From NCBI GenBank assembly GCA_019739225.1, contig JAHHDT010000007.1, positions 186,001 through 250,000 on the forward strand: a stretch of 64,000 nt of DNA, in the 5' to 3' direction. Position numbers and translations under genes: made by a program. This DNA comes from Aquamicrobium sp. GTDB taxonomy: Bacteria > Pseudomonadota > Alphaproteobacteria > Rhizobiales > Rhizobiaceae. Positions 9,358 to 49,176 of the stretch are shown piece by piece (the first letter of the stretch is position 1; every line of letters begins with the position of its first letter). The notes below the pieces were generated by a model. The model was not told the DNA's origin. It saw nothing but the letters and a program-made list of their open reading frames with translations, and did no database searches.

Positions 9358-9667
9358 GATTTCGCCCACGCTCTTTTTGTGGGGCGATGATCGGTTCTCC
9401 GTGTCCGCGATGCAAAATACGCTTTTGGCTGATACCGGCGCTGTTGGTGCTACCAACGGCGTATCGCGGCAACTCACACAGCCAAGGGCAGAGCCGGTTC
9501 TGCCCCAACCCTATCCAGCCTACTCCATTGGGGGATGCGGTTGCCCATTCTGCGGTCTCGGCTTCAAGGAGTCCGGCCCGTATCGTCCATGGCAGGCTTT
9601 GGCGGGCACATATTGGGAACGTCGCCCGTCTCTTCCAAAACCGCAGAACGACCTCTGGAGAAACGCA
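9358..9667. promoter_or_regulatory. Divergent intergenic region with palindromic element
   Basis: A 310-bp gap between the divergent epimerase and methyltransferase genes. No gene is supported. It contains an imperfect inverted repeat at 9440-9462 with 10-base arms CGCTGTTGGT and ACCAACGGCG around a GCT loop (one mismatch). GATA and TATC flank it at 9431-9434 and 9463-9466. This could be an operator or a hairpin. The plus-strand gene has a GGAG ribosome-binding site just upstream of 9668. Confidence 0.4.
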
Positions 9668-39118: not shown

Positions 39119-39141
39119 CTGCATTGCGTGAGCCAAACCGG

Positions 39142-40089
39142 ATGCTGAAGATCATCGCCAGGCGCGTTTTCGTCGCGATCCCCACGCTGGTGCTCGTGAC
39201 ACTGATCGTGTTCGGGCTTCAGAAGATACTGCCGGGCGATCCGCTGCTGACCATGGCAGGCGAGGAGCGGGACCCCCAGGTGCTTGCCTTCCTGCGCGAA
39301 AAGTATCGCCTCGACGATCCGTTCCACGTCCAGTACCTCGCTTGGCTCGGCAACGTCCTCACCGGCGATTTCGGCAATTCGCTGCGCACCGGCGTCCCGG
39401 TTTCGACGCTGATCGCGCAGAAGCTGCCGGTGACGCTGCAGCTTGCGGTTATGGCGATCGTCATGGCGATGCTGATCGGCATTCCAGCCGGCATCATCGC
39501 GGCGGTGCGGAAGGGGACGGTAACGGACTATGCCGCCAACGCCGTCGCGTTGTCCGGCATGTCCATTCCGAATTTCTGGCTCGGCATCATCCTCATCATG
39601 ATCGTCTCCGTGCAGTGGCGGCTGCTTCCCGCGTCCGGCTACGTGCCGCTGACGGAAGACCCGCTGCAATCGCTGCGCACGATGCTGATGCCATCCTTCG
39701 TGCTTGGCACGGCGCTGGCTGCATATCTGATGCGGCATACTCGCTCGGCGATGCTCGGCGTGCTGACCTCCGATTACATCAGGACAGCGCGGGCGAAGGG
39801 CCTGCTGCCGAAGACGGTGATCCTCAAGCATGCGCTGCGCAATGCGCTGATGCCCATTGTGACCCTGTCGACGCTGCTGTTCGGCGAGTTGCTGGCCGGC
39901 GCCGTGCTGACCGAACAGGTCTTCACCATCCCCGGTTTCGGCAAGCTCATCGTCGATGCCGTGTTTACGCGCGACTATGCCGTTGTGCAGGGCGTTGTCT
40001 TGTGCACGGCCGTCGGCTTCATCTTCATGAACCTGATTGCCGACGTGCTCTACATCCTCATCAATCCGCGTCTGAGGCATCCGCAATGA
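39142..40089 (+). CDS. Peptide-type ABC transporter permease (DppB-like)
   Basis: A 315-residue permease with the OppB start MLKIIARRVFVAIPTLVLV, GLQKILPGDPL, the EAA loop YIRTARAKGLLPKTVILKHA and the C-terminal NPRLRH. I chose ATG 39142; a TTG at 39124 is in frame. Its stop overlaps the next ATG by four bases. It is one half of the importer channel. Confidence 0.92.
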   Translation: MLKIIARRVFVAIPTLVLVTLIVFGLQKILPGDPLLTMAGEERDPQVLAFLREKYRLDDPFHVQYLAWLGNVLTGDFGNSLRTGVPVSTLIAQKLPVTLQLAVMAIVMAMLIGIPAGIIAAVRKGTVTDYAANAVALSGMSIPNFWLGIILIMIVSVQWRLLPASGYVPLTEDPLQSLRTMLMPSFVLGTALAAYLMRHTRSAMLGVLTSDYIRTARAKGLLPKTVILKHALRNALMPIVTLSTLLFGELLAGAVLTEQVFTIPGFGKLIVDAVFTRDYAVVQGVVLCTAVGFIFMNLIADVLYILINPRLRHPQ

Positions 40090-40973: not shown

Positions 40974-42770
40974 ATGTTCACTACAAGGCCCGAGATCCTC
41001 GGCACGTTCGGCGTCGTCACCACCACCCATTGGCTCGCCTCGCAATCCGGCATGGCGATGCTGGAGCGCGGCGGCAACGCTTTCGACGCCGCGGTGGCAG
41101 CCGGGTTCGTGCTGCAGGTGGTCGAACCGCACCTCGTCGGCCCCGGCGGCGAAGTGCCGATTGTCTTCCACTCGGCAAGAACCGGAAAGACCGAAGTGCT
41201 GTGCGGGCAGGGCACGACGCCGGCAGGCGCGACCATGGAACACTACAAGGGGCAGGGGCTGACGCTGATCCCCGGCAACGGCCTGCTGGCGACCGTGATC
41301 CCGGGCGCATTCGATGCCTGGATGCAGCTTCTGCGCGATCATGGCTCGCTGCCGCTGGCCGATGTCATGGCGCCCGCGATCCACTATGCCGAGAACGGTC
41401 ATCCGATGCTGCCGCGCGTCGCCAACACCATTGCGGGGCTGAAGGACTTCTTCACCCGCGAGTGGCCGACTTCAGCGGCCTTCTTCACGCCCGGCGGCCG
41501 GTTGCCGGAGGCGAAGAAGCTGTTCCGCAACGAGGCGCTGGCGAACACCTGGAAGCGTGTCATCTCGGAATCGCAGGCGGGCGGCGGCAGCCGCGAAAAG
41601 CAGATCGAGCGCGCCCGCGACGCGTTCTATCGCGGCTTCGTTGCCGAGGCGATCGACCGGTTCGCACGCGAGAATGAGGTGATGGACGAAAGCGGCTCCC
41701 GCCACCGCGGCGTGATCACCGCCGACGACATGGCCGGTTGGCAGGCGACCTACGAAAAGCCGCTGACCTATGACTATCATGGCTATCGCCTGAACAAGAT
41801 CGGTCCATGGGGGCAGGGGCCGGTCTTCCTGCAGACGCTAGCGCTGCTGAAGGGCTTCGACATTGGGGCCATGGAAACGCGCGGGCCGGATTTCGTCCAC
41901 ACGCTGACGGAGGCGATGAAGCTCGCCTTCGCCGACCGCGAATATTACTATAGCGATCCGAATTTCATCGACGTCCCGATCGAGACGCTGCTGTCGGATG
42001 CCTATAGCGACGAGCGGCGCAAGCTGATCGCCGAGACGGCGTCGCTTGAGCTGCGGCCGGGCCGTATCGACGGCTACGAGGACCAGATCGCGCGCATGGA
42101 TGCCGCCCTCGAGCGCCTGTCGCGGGTGGCCAATCCCGACGCGGCTTCGGCCGAGCCGACCATGGCGGACATGCGCTCGGTGCGCCGTGGCGACACCGTC
42201 CATCTCGACGCCATCGACAAGGACGGCAACATGGTCGCGGCGATGCCTTCCGGCGGCTGGCTGCAGTCCTCGCCCTACATTCCCGAGCTCGGCTTCATGC
42301 TCAACACACGCGCCCAGATGTTCTGGCTGGAGGAGGGGCTGCCGGCGAGCCTGGCACCCGGAAAGCGCCCACGCACGACGCTGACGCCAAGCCTCGCCGA
42401 AAAGGACAGCCGCCCCTACATGGTGTTCGGCACGCCGGGCGGCGACCAGCAGGAGCAGTGGCAGCTCCAGTTCTTCCTCCGCCATGTCCATCACGGCATG
42501 AACCTGCAGGAGGCAATCGACCTGCCGATGTCGCATACGGCGCACTTCCCGAACTCGTTCTATCCGCGCGACCGCAAGCCCGGCAACCTCGCCATCGAGG
42601 AAACATTCGGCGCGGAGACGATCGAGGCGCTCAAGGCACGGGGGCATCGTGTCGACGTGACGCCGGAATGGTCGATCGGCCGCATGGTCGCTGCCGCGCG
42701 CGACGAGGACGGGATGCTGCGGGCTGCCGCAACGCCACGTTTGATGCAAGCCTACGCCGTCGGCCGTTAG
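40974..42770 (+). CDS. Gamma-glutamyltransferase family protein
   Basis: A 598-residue Ntn-hydrolase of the GGT family. The predicted autocleavage nucleophile is Thr408 in RRGDTVHLDAIDKDGN, corresponding to Thr391 in the E. coli enzyme's TTHYSVVDKDGN. Other landmarks are ERGGNAFDAAVAA near residue 27, the substrate-loop QSSPY and GTPGGDQQEQ. There is no signal peptide, so it is cytoplasmic, unlike periplasmic E. coli Ggt. It is the last gene of the importer operon. It probably cleaves an imported gamma-glutamyl or related amide compound; GGT-like acylases for other substrates exist, so specificity is open. Confidence 0.88.
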   Translation: MFTTRPEILGTFGVVTTTHWLASQSGMAMLERGGNAFDAAVAAGFVLQVVEPHLVGPGGEVPIVFHSARTGKTEVLCGQGTTPAGATMEHYKGQGLTLIPGNGLLATVIPGAFDAWMQLLRDHGSLPLADVMAPAIHYAENGHPMLPRVANTIAGLKDFFTREWPTSAAFFTPGGRLPEAKKLFRNEALANTWKRVISESQAGGGSREKQIERARDAFYRGFVAEAIDRFARENEVMDESGSRHRGVITADDMAGWQATYEKPLTYDYHGYRLNKIGPWGQGPVFLQTLALLKGFDIGAMETRGPDFVHTLTEAMKLAFADREYYYSDPNFIDVPIETLLSDAYSDERRKLIAETASLELRPGRIDGYEDQIARMDAALERLSRVANPDAASAEPTMADMRSVRRGDTVHLDAIDKDGNMVAAMPSGGWLQSSPYIPELGFMLNTRAQMFWLEEGLPASLAPGKRPRTTLTPSLAEKDSRPYMVFGTPGGDQQEQWQLQFFLRHVHHGMNLQEAIDLPMSHTAHFPNSFYPRDRKPGNLAIEETFGAETIEALKARGHRVDVTPEWSIGRMVAAARDEDGMLRAAATPRLMQAYAVGR

Positions 42771-42842: not shown

Positions 42843-44243
42843 ATGGCGGTGCAGGCGGCACGCAAGCTGCGGGAACCTGTTGGCGATCCGGAATTCGGCC
42901 CCTGGCTGGCGCAGGCATCGATCCTGATCATCGATGACGAGCCGGGCATGCGCAATTTCCTGATGCGCACGCTCGGCCCACGCTGCAAGCGGATAGAGGA
43001 GGCCGCTGACACGGACGAGGCGACCCGCAAGCTCGACGAGCACCATTTCGACGTCGTCATTCTCGACAACATCATGCCGGGAAAGAACGGCGTCGACTGG
43101 CTGGCCGAGCAGCGCGCGATCGGCCTCTTTGCCGACGCCATCCTGATCACTGCATTCGCCGATCTCGAAACCGCGATCCAGGCGCTGAGGGCAGGGGCCG
43201 CGGATTTCGTGCTCAAGCCGTTCCGGTCCAACCAGATCCTCAACGCGGTGGCGCGATGCCTCGACCGGGTGCGCCTGCAGCGTGAGAACTACGTGCTGCG
43301 CTACGAACTGCGCGCGGCCTCGGACCACATGTTGCTTCGAGACCGGCTGATCGGGGAGTCGGATGCCATCCGCCAGGTTCGCGAAACCATCGCCCGCGTC
43401 GCGCCGCTCCCTACATCGGTGCTGCTCACGGGCGAATCCGGAACGGGAAAGGAAGTGGCGGCTCGGTCGCTGCATTCGCTGTCCGAGCGTGTCGACAAAC
43501 CCTTCGTGCCCGTCAACTGCGCGGCGATCCCGCCCGACATGATCGAGAGCGAACTTTTCGGTCATGTCAAAGGCGCTTTCACAGGTGCCGAAGGATCGCG
43601 CGAAGGCATTTTCATGCACGCGCAGGGCGGCACGCTGTTCCTGGACGAAATGGGCGATCTGCCGCTTGCCCTGCAAGGCAAGCTTCTGCGGGTGCTGGAA
43701 GACCGTCGGGTGCGGCCGGTCGGATCGGAGCGCGAGGTGCCGGTCGATCTGCGGTTCGTCTTCGCGACCAATGTCGATCTTGCGCGCGCTGTCGAGGAGG
43801 GGCGGTTCAGGGCCGATCTCTATTTCCGCATCAATGTGATGCAGATCCATCTTCCGCCGCTCAACGAACGCGACGACGACGTGCAGGAACTCGCCGACCT
43901 GTTCATGCGCAAGCTCTCCCAGCAGCTCGGCATGCCGCCGGTGCAGCTCGAGGAGGAGGCGCGAGCCGCGCTGGCGCGGTACGACTGGCCGGGCAATGTG
44001 CGCGAACTGCGCAACGTCATTGAGCGTACCCTGATCCTTGGGCGCTTCCCGCTGGAGCAGCTCGGTGCAAGCCGGTCACCGCCGCGCGGGACTGACGAGA
44101 GTGACGGCAGTCTTGCCGACCTCGAACGCCGCCACATCCTCTCCGTGCTGAGGGACAGCGGCGGTAACCGGGAGGAGGCGGCCCGGCGGCTGGGCGTCTC
44201 GCGCAAGACGATCGACCGCAAATGCGCGGCGTGGAATGTCTGA
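42843..44243 (+). CDS. Sigma-54-dependent response regulator (NtrC family)
   Basis: A 466-residue three-domain activator. The receiver has its phospho-acceptor at Asp75 in VVILDNIMPG. The AAA+ domain has Walker A GESGTGKE at 197-204 and the sigma-54 contact loop GAFTGA at 244-249. A Fis-type helix-turn-helix closes the protein (REEAARRLGVSRKTIDRK). It activates transcription from sigma-54 promoters when phosphorylated by the kinase encoded next, whose gene overlaps by eight bases. A likely target is the MFS gene, which has a sigma-54 promoter and paired palindromes upstream. GGGGGAGG lies seven bases before the ATG. Confidence 0.94.
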   Translation: MAVQAARKLREPVGDPEFGPWLAQASILIIDDEPGMRNFLMRTLGPRCKRIEEAADTDEATRKLDEHHFDVVILDNIMPGKNGVDWLAEQRAIGLFADAILITAFADLETAIQALRAGAADFVLKPFRSNQILNAVARCLDRVRLQRENYVLRYELRAASDHMLLRDRLIGESDAIRQVRETIARVAPLPTSVLLTGESGTGKEVAARSLHSLSERVDKPFVPVNCAAIPPDMIESELFGHVKGAFTGAEGSREGIFMHAQGGTLFLDEMGDLPLALQGKLLRVLEDRRVRPVGSEREVPVDLRFVFATNVDLARAVEEGRFRADLYFRINVMQIHLPPLNERDDDVQELADLFMRKLSQQLGMPPVQLEEEARAALARYDWPGNVRELRNVIERTLILGRFPLEQLGASRSPPRGTDESDGSLADLERRHILSVLRDSGGNREEAARRLGVSRKTIDRKCAAWNV

Positions 44244-46272
44244 GACGACAGCCGATGCAACTGCAAAGATGAGGGAACGCGGCCGCTCGGTCCGCTTCAG
44301 GCTGCTCGCCATCGCGCTTCTGCCGACGCTCGTGCTGCTGCCGCTGTTGCTGGGCGTCACCGTCTTTCGCTGGAATGCCAAGTTCGACGCAACGCTGATT
44401 TCCAAGGTCAATGGCGACCTCACCATTGCGCACCAATATCTGGCGCGCATCCTTGAAAACACCGGCGAGCAGATCGCTGCGCTGGGCGCTTCCGCCCGCT
44501 ACCGCGATACCGTCGAATTGCAGCGGACCGCGCCGGATTCGCTGGAGCAGCTTCTGGAGGAGACCCGGCGCGCGCTTGCCTTCGACTTTCTTTACCTGAC
44601 CGACGAGGCAGGCGATATGGTTGCCTCGGCGCGCTCGCTGACCGACGGGCGAAGACGGACCGACTGGCCGATTATCGTGTCCGCTCTGGCAGGAAACCCT
44701 GAAACAGCCATCGATATTTTCAGCGGCGAAGATCTGGCTGCGATCTCGCCCGACCTCGCCGCGCAGGCGCGCGTCGAACTGGTGCCGACGGCTAATGCCG
44801 TGCCGACCGATCGCAGCGAGGAGACGCGCGGTATGGTCGTGCATTCGGCCAGCCCGGCCGCACTCGGAAACGGCGAGACAGGGGCGCTCGTTGGCGGTGT
44901 GCTGCTCAACCGCAACCTCGAATTCATCGATACCATCAACGACCTCGTCTATCGTGAGGCGAGCCTGCCGGAAGGAAGCCAGGGAACCGCCACGCTGTTC
45001 GTCGACGACGTTCGCATCAGCACGAATGTGCGCCTGTTCGAAGGACGGCGTGCGCTGGGGACCCGCGTTTCGGCGATCGTGCGCTCCGCCGTGCTCGACA
45101 AGGGCCGGACCTGGCTCGACAGCGCGTTCGTGGTCAACGACTGGTACGTCTCCGCCTACGAACCGGTCATCGACAGCTACGGCAAGCGGGTCGGCATGCT
45201 CTATGTCGGCTTCCTCGAGGCACCGTTCACCGAAGCCAAGCGCGAGACGTTGCTGACGATCCTGCTGGCGTTCCTGGCCATTGCGATGGTCAGCGTGCCG
45301 ATCTTCCTGCGCTGGGCTGGGTCGATCTTCCTGCCGCTCGAGCGCATGACGGGCACCATCGCCAAAGTCGAGAGCGGTGATCTCGGTGCGCGAACGAACG
45401 TGGCCGAGGCTCGCGACGAGATCGGTCGCGTCGCCGTACACCTCGATCACCTGCTGGATCAGTTGCAGGAGCGCGACCGGCAATTGCGTGCCTGGAACGA
45501 AGAACTGAATGACCGGGTGGACGAGCGAACCCGCGAACTGCAGCTTGCCAACCGACAGCTCGAGGCAACTACCAAGCAGCTCATCATGTCGGAGAAGCTC
45601 GCAGCGATCGGCGAGATCACGGCGGGCGTGGCGCATGAGATCAACAACCCGATCGCCGTGATGCAGGGCAATCTCGAAGTCGTGCGGGCAGTCATGGGCG
45701 ACAGGGCGGACGAGGCGAAAACCGAATTCCGCCTCCTCGACGAGCAGATCCATCGCATCAGCCAGATCGTCACCAAGCTTCTGCAATTCGCCAAGCCCGA
45801 AGAGTATGCCGGCTATGTCGAGCGGCATGCGCCCGACACCGTCATCGACGATTGCCTGCCGCTGGTCCAGCATCTGCTCAACAAGGCGGAGATCGACATC
45901 GTCCGTGAGAAGGGAGCCAAGCGCTTCCTGCTGATGAACCGCACGGAACTGCAGCAGGTGCTGGTCAACCTGATTGTGAATGCCATCCATGCGATGCCGG
46001 ACGGCGGTCAGCTTACTTTCGTCACGCGCGACGAGGATATCGACGGGCGGCCGGGCCTGGCGATCGTGGTGACCGATACCGGCGTCGGAATGAGCGACGA
46101 ACTGATCCGCAAGGTCTTCGATCCGTTCTTCACCACCAAGCGCAGCGAGGGCACGGGGCTCGGCCTTTCCATCAGCCAGACCCTGATAAAGCGCCAGGGT
46201 GGGCGGATCGCGGTCGAGAGCGAAGAGGGCAGGGGCACCACCTTTACGATCTGGCTGCCTGAAGCTGCCTGA
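44236..46272 (+). CDS. Sensor histidine kinase partner of the NtrC-type regulator
   Basis: A 678-residue membrane kinase. The first membrane helix lies at about residues 21-43 and a large periplasmic (Cache-like) sensor follows up to about residue 335. A second helix lies at about 337-360, with a HAMP domain and a coiled coil (ERDRQLRAWNEELNDRVDER) after it. The phosphorylated His467 is in VAHEINNPIAV. The HATPase domain has NLIVNAIHAMPDGG, DTGVGM and GTGLGLSIS. It resembles the DctB/NtrB group, which senses dicarboxylates or similar anions. The ligand is unknown; an organic acid exchanged by the adjacent MFS carrier is a fair inference. Confidence 0.92.
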   Translation: MSETTADATAKMRERGRSVRFRLLAIALLPTLVLLPLLLGVTVFRWNAKFDATLISKVNGDLTIAHQYLARILENTGEQIAALGASARYRDTVELQRTAPDSLEQLLEETRRALAFDFLYLTDEAGDMVASARSLTDGRRRTDWPIIVSALAGNPETAIDIFSGEDLAAISPDLAAQARVELVPTANAVPTDRSEETRGMVVHSASPAALGNGETGALVGGVLLNRNLEFIDTINDLVYREASLPEGSQGTATLFVDDVRISTNVRLFEGRRALGTRVSAIVRSAVLDKGRTWLDSAFVVNDWYVSAYEPVIDSYGKRVGMLYVGFLEAPFTEAKRETLLTILLAFLAIAMVSVPIFLRWAGSIFLPLERMTGTIAKVESGDLGARTNVAEARDEIGRVAVHLDHLLDQLQERDRQLRAWNEELNDRVDERTRELQLANRQLEATTKQLIMSEKLAAIGEITAGVAHEINNPIAVMQGNLEVVRAVMGDRADEAKTEFRLLDEQIHRISQIVTKLLQFAKPEEYAGYVERHAPDTVIDDCLPLVQHLLNKAEIDIVREKGAKRFLLMNRTELQQVLVNLIVNAIHAMPDGGQLTFVTRDEDIDGRPGLAIVVTDTGVGMSDELIRKVFDPFFTTKRSEGTGLGLSISQTLIKRQGGRIAVESEEGRGTTFTIWLPEAA

Positions 46273-46278
46273 GACCTT

Positions 46279-46315
46279 TGGACATTTTGTCCATGCCTTC
46301 CGGACAAAATGTCCA
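46279..46315. promoter_or_regulatory. Paired upstream activator sites for the NtrC-type regulator
   Basis: Two 14-base inverted arms, TGGACATTTTGTCC and GGACAAAATGTCCA, separated by nine bases. Each arm is itself a GGACA-N3-TGTCC dyad, as expected for two activator dimers. They lie 53-89 bp upstream of the -24 element of a sigma-54 promoter and just after the kinase gene. They form one large hairpin as well, but the spacing to the promoter favours activator binding. Confidence 0.75.
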
Positions 46316-46366
46316 TAGGGCTTTTCTCTTACTCGATAAGTCTCTGAAATCGTTGAGCCGCGCAAC

Positions 46367-46382
46367 TGGCACGTCCGTTGCT
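46367..46382 (+). promoter_or_regulatory. Sigma-54 promoter of the MFS carrier gene
   Basis: TGGCACG-N4-TTGCT, an exact match to the sigma-54 consensus, with the invariant GG at 46368-46369 and GC at 46380-46381. Transcription should start near 46393, leaving a leader of about 160 bases before the MFS gene. Confidence 0.85.
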
Positions 46383-46416
46383 TATGGTTAAAGGCAACCA
46401 AACGGGAGGAGTGCGG

Positions 46417-46443
46417 ATGAGGCGGGGACGCCGCAAGCCATAG
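46417..46443 (+). other. Possible leader mini-ORF MRRGRRKP
   Basis: An eight-codon frame (MRRGRRKP) with a strong GGGAGGAG ribosome-binding site sits in the leader of the sigma-54 transcript, about 110 bp before the MFS start. It might be a regulatory leader peptide or chance; there is no other evidence of translation. Confidence 0.25.
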
Positions 46444-46551
46444 ACGTTCGGGCGGCCGCTGCCACGGAGGGCGGCGCGGCAGCCAATAATCATCAGACGT
46501 AACCAGCAGGACGACCCGCGCGGATGCACTTCGGCGGGCGGAGGAGAATTC

Positions 46552-48210
46552 ATGTCCACAGCAAGTGAAACCTACACAGGCGGCAATGTCGGTGTCGGCA
46601 TACTCGACAAGGAGCGCATCATCGCGCGGCCGGGCTTCAACCGCTGGCTCGTGCCGCCGGCAGCGCTCGCCATCCATCTCTGCATCGGCATGGCCTACGG
46701 CTTCAGCGTGTTCTGGCTGCCGCTGTCGCGCGCCATCGGCATCGATCAGCCGGTTGTCTGCGCGGACCTGAACCTGTTCACGGCGCTGTTCACGACCACC
46801 TGCGACTGGCGGGTGTCCGACCTCGGCTGGATGTATACGCTGTTCTTCGTCTTCCTCGGCTCGGCGGCTGCCATCTGGGGCGGCTGGCTCGAGCGCGCCG
46901 GCCCGCGCAAGGCGGGCCTGGCGTCTATGGTCTGCTGGTGCGGCGGCATGGTCATCGCCGCGATCGGCATCATCACCCACCAATTGTGGCTGATGTGGCT
47001 GGGCGCCGGCGTCATCGGCGGTATCGGCCTCGGGCTCGGCTACATCTCGCCGGTCTCGACACTCATCAAATGGTTCCCCGACCGGCGCGGCATGGCCACC
47101 GGCATGGCGATCATGGGTTTCGGCGGCGGCGCGATGATTGGTGCGCCTCTGGCCAATTTCCTGATGAACACGTTCCGCACGGAAGATTCGGTCGGCGTCT
47201 GGCAGACCTTCGTCGTGATGGCCCTGCTTTATGCCGTTGCGATGACGCTCGGGGCTTTCGGTTATCGCATCCCGCCATCGGGCTGGCGGCCGGAAGGCTG
47301 GTCCCCGCCCGCCAGCACCAACAAGGCGATGATCACGACCCGGCACGTCCACCTGCGGGACGCGCATAAGACGACCCAGTTCTGGCTGATCTGGGCGGTA
47401 CTCATGCTCAACGTCTCGGCCGGTATCGGCGTCATCGGCATGGCCTCGCCGATGCTGCAGGAAATCTTCGCCGGCGACCTGATCGGGCTGCCCGACCTTT
47501 CCTTCAACGAACTCGACGCCAGCCAGAAGACCGCGATCGCCGGCATTGCCGCAGGCTTCGCGGGGCTCCTGTCGCTGTTCAATATCGTCGGGCGCTTCTT
47601 CTGGGCGTCCCTTTCCGACTATATCGGCCGCAAGAACACCTATTACACCTTCCTGCTGCTGGGCATCGTGCTCTATGCGCTTGCGCCGACCGCGGCGCAT
47701 ATGGGCAGCCAGCTTCTGTTCGTGCTGATGTTCGGCATCATCCTGTCGATGTATGGCGGCGGCTTCGCAACGATCCCCGCCTATCTCGCGGACATATTCG
47801 GCACCCAGTTCGTCGGCGCGATCCACGGCCGGCTGCTGACCGCATGGTCGACGGCGGGCATCGTCGGGCCGGTGGTGGTCAATTACATCCGCGAGTTCCA
47901 GCTTGCGGCGGGCATTCCGCGCGCCCAGGTGTACGACTTCACGATGTACATCCTCGCCGGAATGCTGGCGCTGGGGGTCGTGGCCAACTTCTTCGTGCGA
48001 CCACTCGCTGAGAAGTGGTTCATGTCCGACGCCGAGGTTGCGGAACTGCAAGCCAAGACCGCAGCCTCGCAAACGGTGCAGACCGGTTCGTTCGGCATTG
48101 GCAAGGGCGGGCTCGACGCCAAGGCGGCCATCGCCTGGACCGCCGTCGGTATCCCGATCCTTCTGGGCATCTGGGTCACGCTGCAGCAGACGGCCGCGCT
48201 CTTCGGCTGA
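46552..48210 (+). CDS. Oxalate/formate antiporter-type MFS carrier with C-terminal extra helix
   Basis: A 552-residue OFA-family MFS transporter. Twelve helices are predicted, with the cytoplasmic-loop signatures GYISPVSTLIKWFPDRRG and RFFWASLSDYIGRKNTYY. The C-terminus adds a Gly-rich linker and a 13th hydrophobic segment, AAIAWTAVGIPILLGIWVTL. That segment resembles, from memory, the separate MFS small subunit encoded next to some OFA carriers, so this looks like a fusion. It likely exchanges a small carboxylate. GGCGGAGGAG lies just upstream, and the sigma-54 promoter controls it. Confidence 0.88.
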   Translation: MSTASETYTGGNVGVGILDKERIIARPGFNRWLVPPAALAIHLCIGMAYGFSVFWLPLSRAIGIDQPVVCADLNLFTALFTTTCDWRVSDLGWMYTLFFVFLGSAAAIWGGWLERAGPRKAGLASMVCWCGGMVIAAIGIITHQLWLMWLGAGVIGGIGLGLGYISPVSTLIKWFPDRRGMATGMAIMGFGGGAMIGAPLANFLMNTFRTEDSVGVWQTFVVMALLYAVAMTLGAFGYRIPPSGWRPEGWSPPASTNKAMITTRHVHLRDAHKTTQFWLIWAVLMLNVSAGIGVIGMASPMLQEIFAGDLIGLPDLSFNELDASQKTAIAGIAAGFAGLLSLFNIVGRFFWASLSDYIGRKNTYYTFLLLGIVLYALAPTAAHMGSQLLFVLMFGIILSMYGGGFATIPAYLADIFGTQFVGAIHGRLLTAWSTAGIVGPVVVNYIREFQLAAGIPRAQVYDFTMYILAGMLALGVVANFFVRPLAEKWFMSDAEVAELQAKTAASQTVQTGSFGIGKGGLDAKAAIAWTAVGIPILLGIWVTLQQTAALFG

Positions 48211-48254: not shown

Positions 48255-48300
48255 GAGCATTCGCCAGTCACGCACTGCGTAAGGCTCGGGGTTGCGTGTC

Positions 48301-49176
48301 ATGCTGATCGAACGGCTCGAACTCTTCATCGTGTTGGCCAAGGAAGGCCATTTCGGCCGCGCCGCCGAGGAATGCGGCGTGACGCAGCCGACCTTGTCTT
48401 CGGCCATCAAGCAGCTCGAGACCATGCTAGGCGTGATGCTGGTGGAGCGGGGCTCGCGTTTCCGCGGTCTCACGCCGGAGGGCCGGCAGGTGCTGACGTG
48501 GGCGCGCCGCATCGTCTCCGATACCCGCACGATGCGCGAGGAGATGCGCGCGGCACGGCTCGGCCTCTCGGGCCGCATACGCATCGCGGCCATTCCTACC
48601 GCACTGGCGATGGTCGCCGGCATCACCACACCTTTTCGCGAGCGGCATCCCGGCGTCGGTTTCTCCGTTCTGTCGCGTACCTCGGTTGAGATCCTGTCGA
48701 TGCTCGGCAATTTCGACATCGATGTCGGCATCACCTATCTCGATCATGAACCCTTGGGAAACGTCACCACCGTGCCGCTCTACAGCGAGCGCTATCATCT
48801 GATCGTCGGTGCGGGCGGGCCATTCGCCGACCGCGAGGAAGTGACGTGGTCGGAGGTCGCGCAGGTGCCGCTCTGCCTGCTGACGCCCGACATGCAGAAC
48901 CGGCGGATCATCGACCGGCATCTGGCCGCGGCCGGCGCAACAGTGCGGCCGACGCTGGAGTCCAACTCGATGGTCGTCCTGTTCTCGCATGTGCGCACGG
49001 GCGAATGGTCGTCGATCATGCCGCTCAACCTTGCGGCGGCTCTCGATTTCGCCGAGCCCATACGCCGCATTCCGATCGTCGCGCCGGCTGTAAGCCATAT
49101 GGTCGGGCTCGTGGCAGCGCGGCGCGAACCGAATACTCCGCTCGTGTCGGCATTGTTGGCGGAGGTGGGGGGCTGA
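48301..49176 (+). CDS. LysR family transcriptional regulator
   Basis: A 291-residue LysR protein with an N-terminal winged helix (LFIVLAKEGHFGRAAEECGVT then QPTLSSAIKQLE; given in parts) and a co-inducer-binding domain from about residue 90. It most resembles regulators of formate dehydrogenase or CbbR-type genes. I use ATG 48301; an in-frame TTG at 48292 is possible. It follows the MFS gene by 90 bp and may regulate it or distant genes; no divergent gene is adjacent. Confidence 0.87.
   Translation: MLIERLELFIVLAKEGHFGRAAEECGVTQPTLSSAIKQLETMLGVMLVERGSRFRGLTPEGRQVLTWARRIVSDTRTMREEMRAARLGLSGRIRIAAIPTALAMVAGITTPFRERHPGVGFSVLSRTSVEILSMLGNFDIDVGITYLDHEPLGNVTTVPLYSERYHLIVGAGGPFADREEVTWSEVAQVPLCLLTPDMQNRRIIDRHLAAAGATVRPTLESNSMVVLFSHVRTGEWSSIMPLNLAAALDFAEPIRRIPIVAPAVSHMVGLVAARREPNTPLVSALLAEVGG

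Follow-up and report, generated by a model that had tools for sequence, protein, structure and literature searches.

Within the window, by which we mean the whole stretch of 64,000 nucleotides that was analysed, a two-component system, a pair of predicted activator sites, a sigma-54 promoter and an MFS carrier gene lie next to one another, and we hold with good confidence that they form a self-contained switch for the uptake of formate. The preliminary description of this DNA had left the acid open; comparison with relatives points to formate as the most likely one. Among the matches listed, the closest relative of the regulator came from Mesorhizobium sediminum, and the source organism is a bacterium related to Mesorhizobium.

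The first gene of the system (42843–44243, + strand) encodes a sigma-54-dependent response regulator of 466 aa. Its Pfam domains Response_reg, Sigma54_activat, AAA_lid_14 and HTH_8, the last a Fis-type HTH, are above their cut-offs, and the translation holds GAFTGA in the AAA+ domain, which makes it a sigma-54 activator of the response-regulator class. The description of the protein as NtrC-type therefore stands for its architecture and its GAFTGA motif but not for NtrC itself: the NtrC equivalog TIGR01818 gave 370 bits against a cut-off of 558.6, and the regulator was far below the cut-offs of other families as well (best 25 of 110 models), so that it is NtrC-like in build, not NtrC. The second gene (44236–46272, + strand) overlaps the first by 8 bp and encodes a sensor histidine kinase of 678 aa with Pfam sCache_3_3, HAMP, HisKA and HATPase_c domains, the first of which bears out the Cache-like sensor proposed earlier. 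The periplasmic part of the kinase has two PAS-like modules, the second being of Cache_3 type with R260, T263 and T276. Further upstream, a peptide-type ABC permease gene (39124–40089) is followed by a gamma-glutamyltranspeptidase-like gene (40974–42770), which among the best 80 of at least 584 regulator loci is common to the window and locus L020 only.

The spacer that separates the kinase stop (46272) from the MFS start (46552) holds a distal predicted activator dyad, GGACATTTTGTCC (46280–46292, no strand assigned), and a proximal one, GGACAAAATGTCC (46302–46314, no strand assigned), each reading GGACA-N3-TGTCC directly and spaced 22 bp centre to centre. They are followed by a −24/−12 sigma-54 promoter, TGGCACGTCCGTTGC (46367–46381, + strand), assigned by sequence and conservation. 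This is the arrangement of a sigma-54 promoter with upstream activator sites, in which a conserved −24/−12 element is accompanied by a pair of dyads roughly 100 bp upstream. The transcription start is predicted near 46393, and the MFS gene has a likely ribosome-binding site, GGAGGAG, at 46540–46546 (+ strand, by sequence). Both dyads and a consensus promoter had been described in this spacer, and both are indeed there: these two dyads and TGGCACGTCCGTTGC are the only zero-mismatch sites of their kinds in the 64-kb window. The inverted GGACA/TGTCC arms were also described correctly, but the length of 14 was not, the core being 13 bp (10 fixed bases plus N3). Downstream, an eight-codon leader ORF of the MFS gene (46417–46443, MRRGRRKP), with a Shine-Dalgarno-like stretch, was set aside: among the loci scanned the same ORF occurs in the near-copy L020 only, and L003, L008 and L061 carry different short ORFs at this position.

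Dyad sites with at most one mismatch number six in the window against a mean of 1.73 in shuffled sequence, and six were reached in 0 of 100 shuffles. The −24/−12 alone is not enriched in the window (29 sites with at most two mismatches vs 31.8 expected), and single elements are weak across the genome too, with five exact −24/−12 sites vs three in the reversed control and nine single dyads vs five. Such common −24/−12 matches are what would favour a chance look-alike or relic in front of an MFS gene that does not depend on sigma-54. In the 5.35-Mb genome there is one exact dyad pair (reversed control, 0), and a relaxed pattern of pair plus TGG matches this place alone; the genome-wide search that had been proposed for further copies of pair and promoter thus returned this locus only. 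The combination of dyad pair and promoter is not a chance event. The genome holds an rpoN gene above the model cut-off, and no sign of a further regulon was found in it by this search: the seven other single dyads include no pair and none with a −24/−12 (at most one mismatch) within 1.5 kb, and the four other exact −24/−12 sites have no dyad within 1.5 kb.

To follow the switch in relatives, GTDB genomes were scanned for relatives of the regulator, giving at least 584 stretches, of which the best 80 (65–98% identical) were used; several of these loci end early at contig ends. An MFS gene lies within 1,200 bp after the kinase gene in 58 of these best 80 of at least 584 loci, and the 22 left out comprise 17 without an MFS match, four with a gap over 1,200 bp and one with a different order. 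The module was defined as a dyad pair (at most one mismatch each, 19–24 or 42–43 bp apart) with a downstream −24/−12 (at most two mismatches). It was complete in 55 of the 58 kinase–MFS loci, and when the same spacers were shuffled by dinucleotides it appeared in 0 of 1,160 cases. Near-copies are numerous among the relatives (about 22 rows are of Bradyrhizobium type), so these and the other counts of loci overstate the number of independent events. The exceptions were L059 and L064, whose −24/−12 has three mismatches, and L081, with a single dyad. The proximal dyad and the −24, each counted from its first base, are 64–67 bp apart in 49 of the 55. The spacer sequences otherwise differ among loci while the whole module is kept, and a look-alike or relic is, on this evidence, the least credible of the readings considered. 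Poor conservation of the dyads had been named beforehand as an outcome that would speak against the switch; dyads, spacing and promoter all proved strongly conserved.

The exact dyad pair was found in nine of 151 genomes of the family, all nine within the 22 that carry the regulator (at least 65% identity) and each no more than 3.5 kb from it, with none in the reversed control. The other 13 regulator-bearing genomes have no exact pair; among the 80 loci, sites with one mismatch are frequent. The dyad pair thus tracks the presence of the activator, in keeping with the earlier view of the dyads as a sign of both regulator and target. The spacing of the dyads is 42–43 bp, about four helical turns, in L039, L051, L054, L056, L059 and L062–L067, from Thalassospira, Roseibium, Stappia and others, in place of the usual 21–24 bp, or about two turns. 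Three exact dyads are present in L011 of Nitratireductor aquimarinus (9408–9455 of that locus).

Dyad 2 of the window matches the reverse complement of dyad 1 exactly. The pair could therefore fold into a hairpin and be read as arms of an intrinsic terminator of the kinase gene, not as activator sites: the arms would enclose a 9-base loop, 7 bp separate them from the kinase stop codon, and GCTTTTCTCTT comes after them. The relatives argue strongly against this. Exact complementarity of the dyads is found in only 11 of 55 relatives and TTTT within 12 nt downstream in only 3 of 55, the spacing jumps between 19–24 and 42–43 bp, and pairs also occur upstream of dnaK (L053, L057, L072, L080), not just behind a kinase gene. 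We regard the terminator as highly improbable and keep the dyads as activator sites.

A further element was found between the dyads and the promoter. In 51 of 56 rows (55 of the 58 loci, with spacer lengths of 150–430, plus the window), the best IHF-like match is placed 29–31 bp ahead of the −24. Matches with at most one mismatch were present in 42 of the 56 rows vs 1.8% of single-base shuffles, a test made after the fact, since the site was first noticed while reading the spacers. The copy in the window, TAAGTCTCTGAAA (46337–46349, no strand assigned; 30 bp upstream of the −24), has two mismatches to YAANNNNTTGATW, which we take to be the IHF consensus, and is not significant alone, as 14% of shuffles reach this level. 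The genome has an IHF-alpha gene above the cut-off, and 46337–46349 is a candidate DNA-bending site.

For the sensor part of the kinase, a phmmer search against the PDB returned only two matches at E ≤ 1, 8py1 (4.9e-5) and 8py0 (0.001). Both cover the second module, and their titles describe chemoreceptor sensor domains in complex with formate. An AF2 model of kinase residues 34–348 (pLDDT 87.5) showed two PAS-like modules, and VIA-align placed 8py1 on it with Z 14.2 and rmsd 2.3 over 136 residues and 8py0 with Z 14.7 and rmsd 2.2 over 151, the lowest rmsd values among the 50 matches listed. By phmmer E values (4.9e-5 and 0.001) and by Z (14.2–14.7), the module is thus homologous to formate-bound Cache domains. 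Taken as a whole, the model matches mostly structures of double-Cache sensors for a wide set of ligands, several of them at the same Z, DctB sensors among them (3by9, Z 15.2; 3e4p, Z 13.6); the top Foldseek rows are likewise double-Cache sensors of other ligands. R260, T263 and T276 are kept in 80 of 80 kinase rows, the window included, and are invariant in a 55-row alignment. Their R-x2-T-x12-T spacing equals that of R142, T145 and T158 of PacF, changes in which affect formate binding according to the available parts of the source (PMC12501870). For Atu0526, the accessible text reports an Arg common to CitA and DcuS, sensors of citrate and C4 acids, and an R115A change that raised the affinity for formate and abolished the response (PMC8698456). 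A conserved sensor Arg by itself is no mark of formate. These homologies suggest formate as the signal of the sensor.

The neighbourhood of the regulator was scanned up to 6 kb on each side (about 10 loci were shorter). Formate dehydrogenase (FDH) genes were present in 43 of the best 80 of at least 584 regulator loci vs none of 20 control loci, which are loci of same-class paralogous regulators (about 40% identity) and have no such MFS or LysR gene and no dyad pair. The kinds of enzyme differ among taxa: Rhizobium and others have FdsGBA together with FdhD, Bradyrhizobium has a fusion of NuoE/NuoF type accompanied by FdhD and MoeA, and two MAG loci that bear the name Gammaproteobacteria have a NAD-dependent FDH of the plant type. 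NCBIfam models support these names (FdsA 974 > 666 bits; FdhD of L002 197 > 141; NAD-dependent FDH 655 in L074 and 470 in L069, cut-off 329), and the FdsB-like proteins, which fall below the NuoF cut-offs and have no model of their own, are named FdsB by place and kin. Locus L074 has its dyads, with an exact promoter, immediately in front of the FDH gene. The count leaves out a gene for a 2-hydroxyacid dehydrogenase near L036, which scored 109 vs 329 bits as a formate dehydrogenase. Among 94 plasmid records with a related regulator, five were examined. Two of these carry more distant kin of the regulator: a Pseudosulfitobacter plasmid has FDH3 genes annotated beside it, and a Paracoccus plasmid has an FdhF/YdeP-type gene, a type of uncertain substrate, about 6 kb away; the other three stretches contain no FDH.

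In the window itself no FDH gene was found. The genome encodes its own fds operon on contig C5, in which fdsGBA is preceded by a LysR gene, and in this genome the NCBIfam cut-offs are passed by FdsA (976 > 666), FdsG (256 > 198) and FdhD (209 > 141 bits). A LysR-type regulator (Pfam) is also encoded in the window (48292–49176, + strand), 81 bp after the MFS gene, and over 287 aa it is 73.5% identical to the one beside the fds operon. This kinship to a LysR beside fds genes makes it FdsR-like by position, and the gene order MFS-LysR-fdsG in L059, L064, L065 and L079 joins the three. Neither this link nor the IHF-like site was part of the preliminary description. The own fds locus has no dyads and no −24/−12, so the LysR pair is all that ties the switch to fds here, and the switch in this genome seems to serve the carrier alone.

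The carrier (46552–48210, + strand; 552 aa) is an OFA-like MFS protein (Pfam MFS_1, 122.5 vs cut-off 33.4), here a predicted formate (monocarboxylate) importer, with a fused C-terminal tail matching NF047966, 'MFS transporter small subunit' (27.8 vs 24 bits). Its best NCBIfam model is that of the L-lactate transporter SfMCT, NF049980, narrowly missed at 303.3 vs 320 bits, and the nearest PDB chain is likewise SfMCT (6g9x, E 1.9e-22); OxlT (8hpj) is matched at E 2.6e-15. In an alignment counted by hand, R348 falls on R272 of OxlT and R280 of SfMCT, and W432 on K355 of OxlT; both residues are invariant in the 62 relatives aligned. As far as the available text goes, R272 of OxlT binds the carboxylate, K355 is essential for oxalate and two basic pocket residues are said to be conserved in the OFA family (PMC10070484), and R280 of SfMCT binds the carboxylate (PMC6573034). 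The carrier keeps the Arg and has Trp for Lys, and so has neither the OFA pocket pair nor the Arg272–Lys355 pair of OxlT. At the SfMCT proton site D257, Asp is present in 34 of 50 close relatives, and 12 distant ones have a gap. The earlier assignment as OFA-type is accordingly right as to the nearest models, and annotated relatives carry the OFA name, but the protein reaches neither the cut-off of the family model TIGR00890 (142.6 vs 374.85 bits) nor the Lys of the pocket pair.

These data bear on two other readings of the cargo. The carrier might exchange oxalate for formate in the manner of OxlT, taking in oxalate and expelling the resulting formate; its OFA-like character would suit this, and FDH could oxidise the oxalate-derived formate. 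The residue essential in OxlT according to the accessible text (K355; PMC10070484) is Trp in the window and in all 62 relatives, the oxalate/formate antiporter model TIGR04259 gave 122 of 335 bits, and no oxalyl-CoA decarboxylase above the cut-off was found in the genome (best 207 vs 739 bits). Oxalate is therefore unlikely as the acid, and we give the exchange very little weight. Somewhat more should be left for the same switch serving another acid, such as lactate, glyoxylate, acetate or another monocarboxylate, with the FDH genes nearby for another reason. SfMCT as the closest model and nearest structure would fit this, as would sugar ABC genes next to the Shinella plasmid loci and the 23 loci, the window's closest relatives among them, that have the MFS gene and no FDH in reach. 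It accounts poorly for the recurrence of several unrelated kinds of FDH beside the regulator but not beside its paralogues, and for the fact that both PDB sequence matches of the sensor are formate complexes. Another acid thus appears improbable, and formate, moving inwards, is the cargo suggested by sequence comparison.

The sites with their conservation and link to the regulator, the gene neighbourhoods and the homologies are computed; from them we infer phosphotransfer, DNA binding, IHF binding, signal, cargo, transport direction and the role of LysR as follows. Formate outside the cytoplasmic membrane would be sensed by the kinase, probably through R260, T263 and T276 of the second, Cache_3-type module, and the kinase would phosphorylate the response regulator. 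An oligomer of the regulator may then bind both dyads, centred at about −107 and −85 relative to the predicted transcription start, while IHF would bend the DNA between dyads and promoter and so aid looping. The AAA+ domain with its GAFTGA motif would open the sigma-54 promoter, and the OFA-like carrier would be made and import formate. Inside the cell, formate is probably the signal to which the LysR regulator of the adjoining gene responds, and FDH, encoded elsewhere in this genome or beside the switch in many relatives, would oxidise it.

In seven loci (L053, L057, L060, L071, L072, L073, L080) dnaK and dnaJ precede regulator and kinase; clpB follows in six of them, and L072 also has groEL. 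Together with L068, whose short stretch has no chaperone genes, these loci form one nested clade (SH-aLRT 95, quick method), which adjoins the two MAG loci with NAD-FDH (SH-aLRT 100). The kinases of the branch keep R/T/T, and five of its genomes contain 14 relaxed modules of pair and promoter vs 0 in the reversed control. The dnaK of the branch is one of two copies in the three genomes tested. M. atlanticum has five modules within about 63 kb, one of them preceding an MFS gene 78.9% identical to that of the window, and the same stretch holds genes for an FdhF/YdeP-type oxidoreductase (915 > 582 bits) and, below equivalog cut-offs, a cytochrome bd-like protein; with this MFS gene and the FdhF/YdeP-type gene near modules, the link to formate-type genes persists in the branch. 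Records L203–L206 of the branch also show the same dyads and sigma-54 promoters. We tentatively suggest, at somewhat less than even odds, a family of formate-sensing kinase and sigma-54 activator pairs that drive uptake, with one nested branch recruited to stress clusters under the same operators. The proposed family would span alphaproteobacteria and some MAGs named Gammaproteobacteria, and the stress clusters would comprise a second dnaK, dnaJ, clpB and once groEL, near the FdhF/YdeP-type oxidoreductase and cytochrome bd genes. If the branch holds, formate would act as a cue to repair proteins, and formate sensing would be tied to protein quality control.

The analysis yields a candidate ligand for a sensor kinase and a full predicted parts list of a promoter inducible by formate, for which the genome search gave one target; formate uptake is relevant to C1 metabolism, to rhizobia and to formate-based biotechnology. 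In the open-access literature, which omits most subscription papers, we found no sigma-54 two-component system for formate. Sigma-54 control has been predicted for formate dehydrogenases (in one COG, 32% of its 176 members) and, in various phyla, for GroEL, DnaK and DnaJ, with no mention of this system in the accessible part of that study (PMC12316311). A Cache_3-type module, here the predicted formate sensor, is shared with Atu0526, PacF and McpF, and the R/T/T spacing with PacF, as far as the available text describes them (PMC8698456, PMC12501870); those proteins are chemoreceptors, whereas the window protein is a kinase, and PacF, in the same partial account, binds formate at its distal module, whereas the match here is to the second, membrane-proximal one. 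The carrier shares with SfMCT and OxlT the MFS fold and a TM8 Arg that holds the carboxylate, but it is distant from both, lacks Lys at the K355 position of OxlT and reaches neither equivalog cut-off. FdsR of Cupriavidus necator belongs to the LysR class. The available text describes it as a formate-inducible regulator (PMC7057948), and the window LysR, whose closest tested kin stands beside fds genes, is likened to it by position.

Among systems for carboxylate uptake, a two-component system and sigma-54 activator devoted to a carboxylate carrier are also seen in MifS-MifR. Its carrier is PA5530, which depends on RpoN. The acid there is alpha-ketoglutarate, the utilisation of which in Pseudomonas aeruginosa is the function given in the accessible part of the report (PMC4482717), and the likeness is one of description. 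The switch for dctA of rhizobia shares with that of the window a double-PAS sensor kinase, an NtrC-type regulator and a sigma-54-driven carboxylate carrier. There the double-PAS periplasmic kinase DctB and the NtrC-type regulator DctD act on a sigma-54 promoter, and the system differs in its C4-dicarboxylates, its DctA carrier and its operators. FhlA of Escherichia coli is a formate-responsive sigma-54 activator that binds formate itself in the cytoplasm and is not a response regulator. The window regulator would likewise be a sigma-54 activator for formate, but it has a receiver domain and is paired with a kinase whose Cache sensor lies outside, and the proposed family, if true, would be the two-component counterpart of FhlA that reads external formate.
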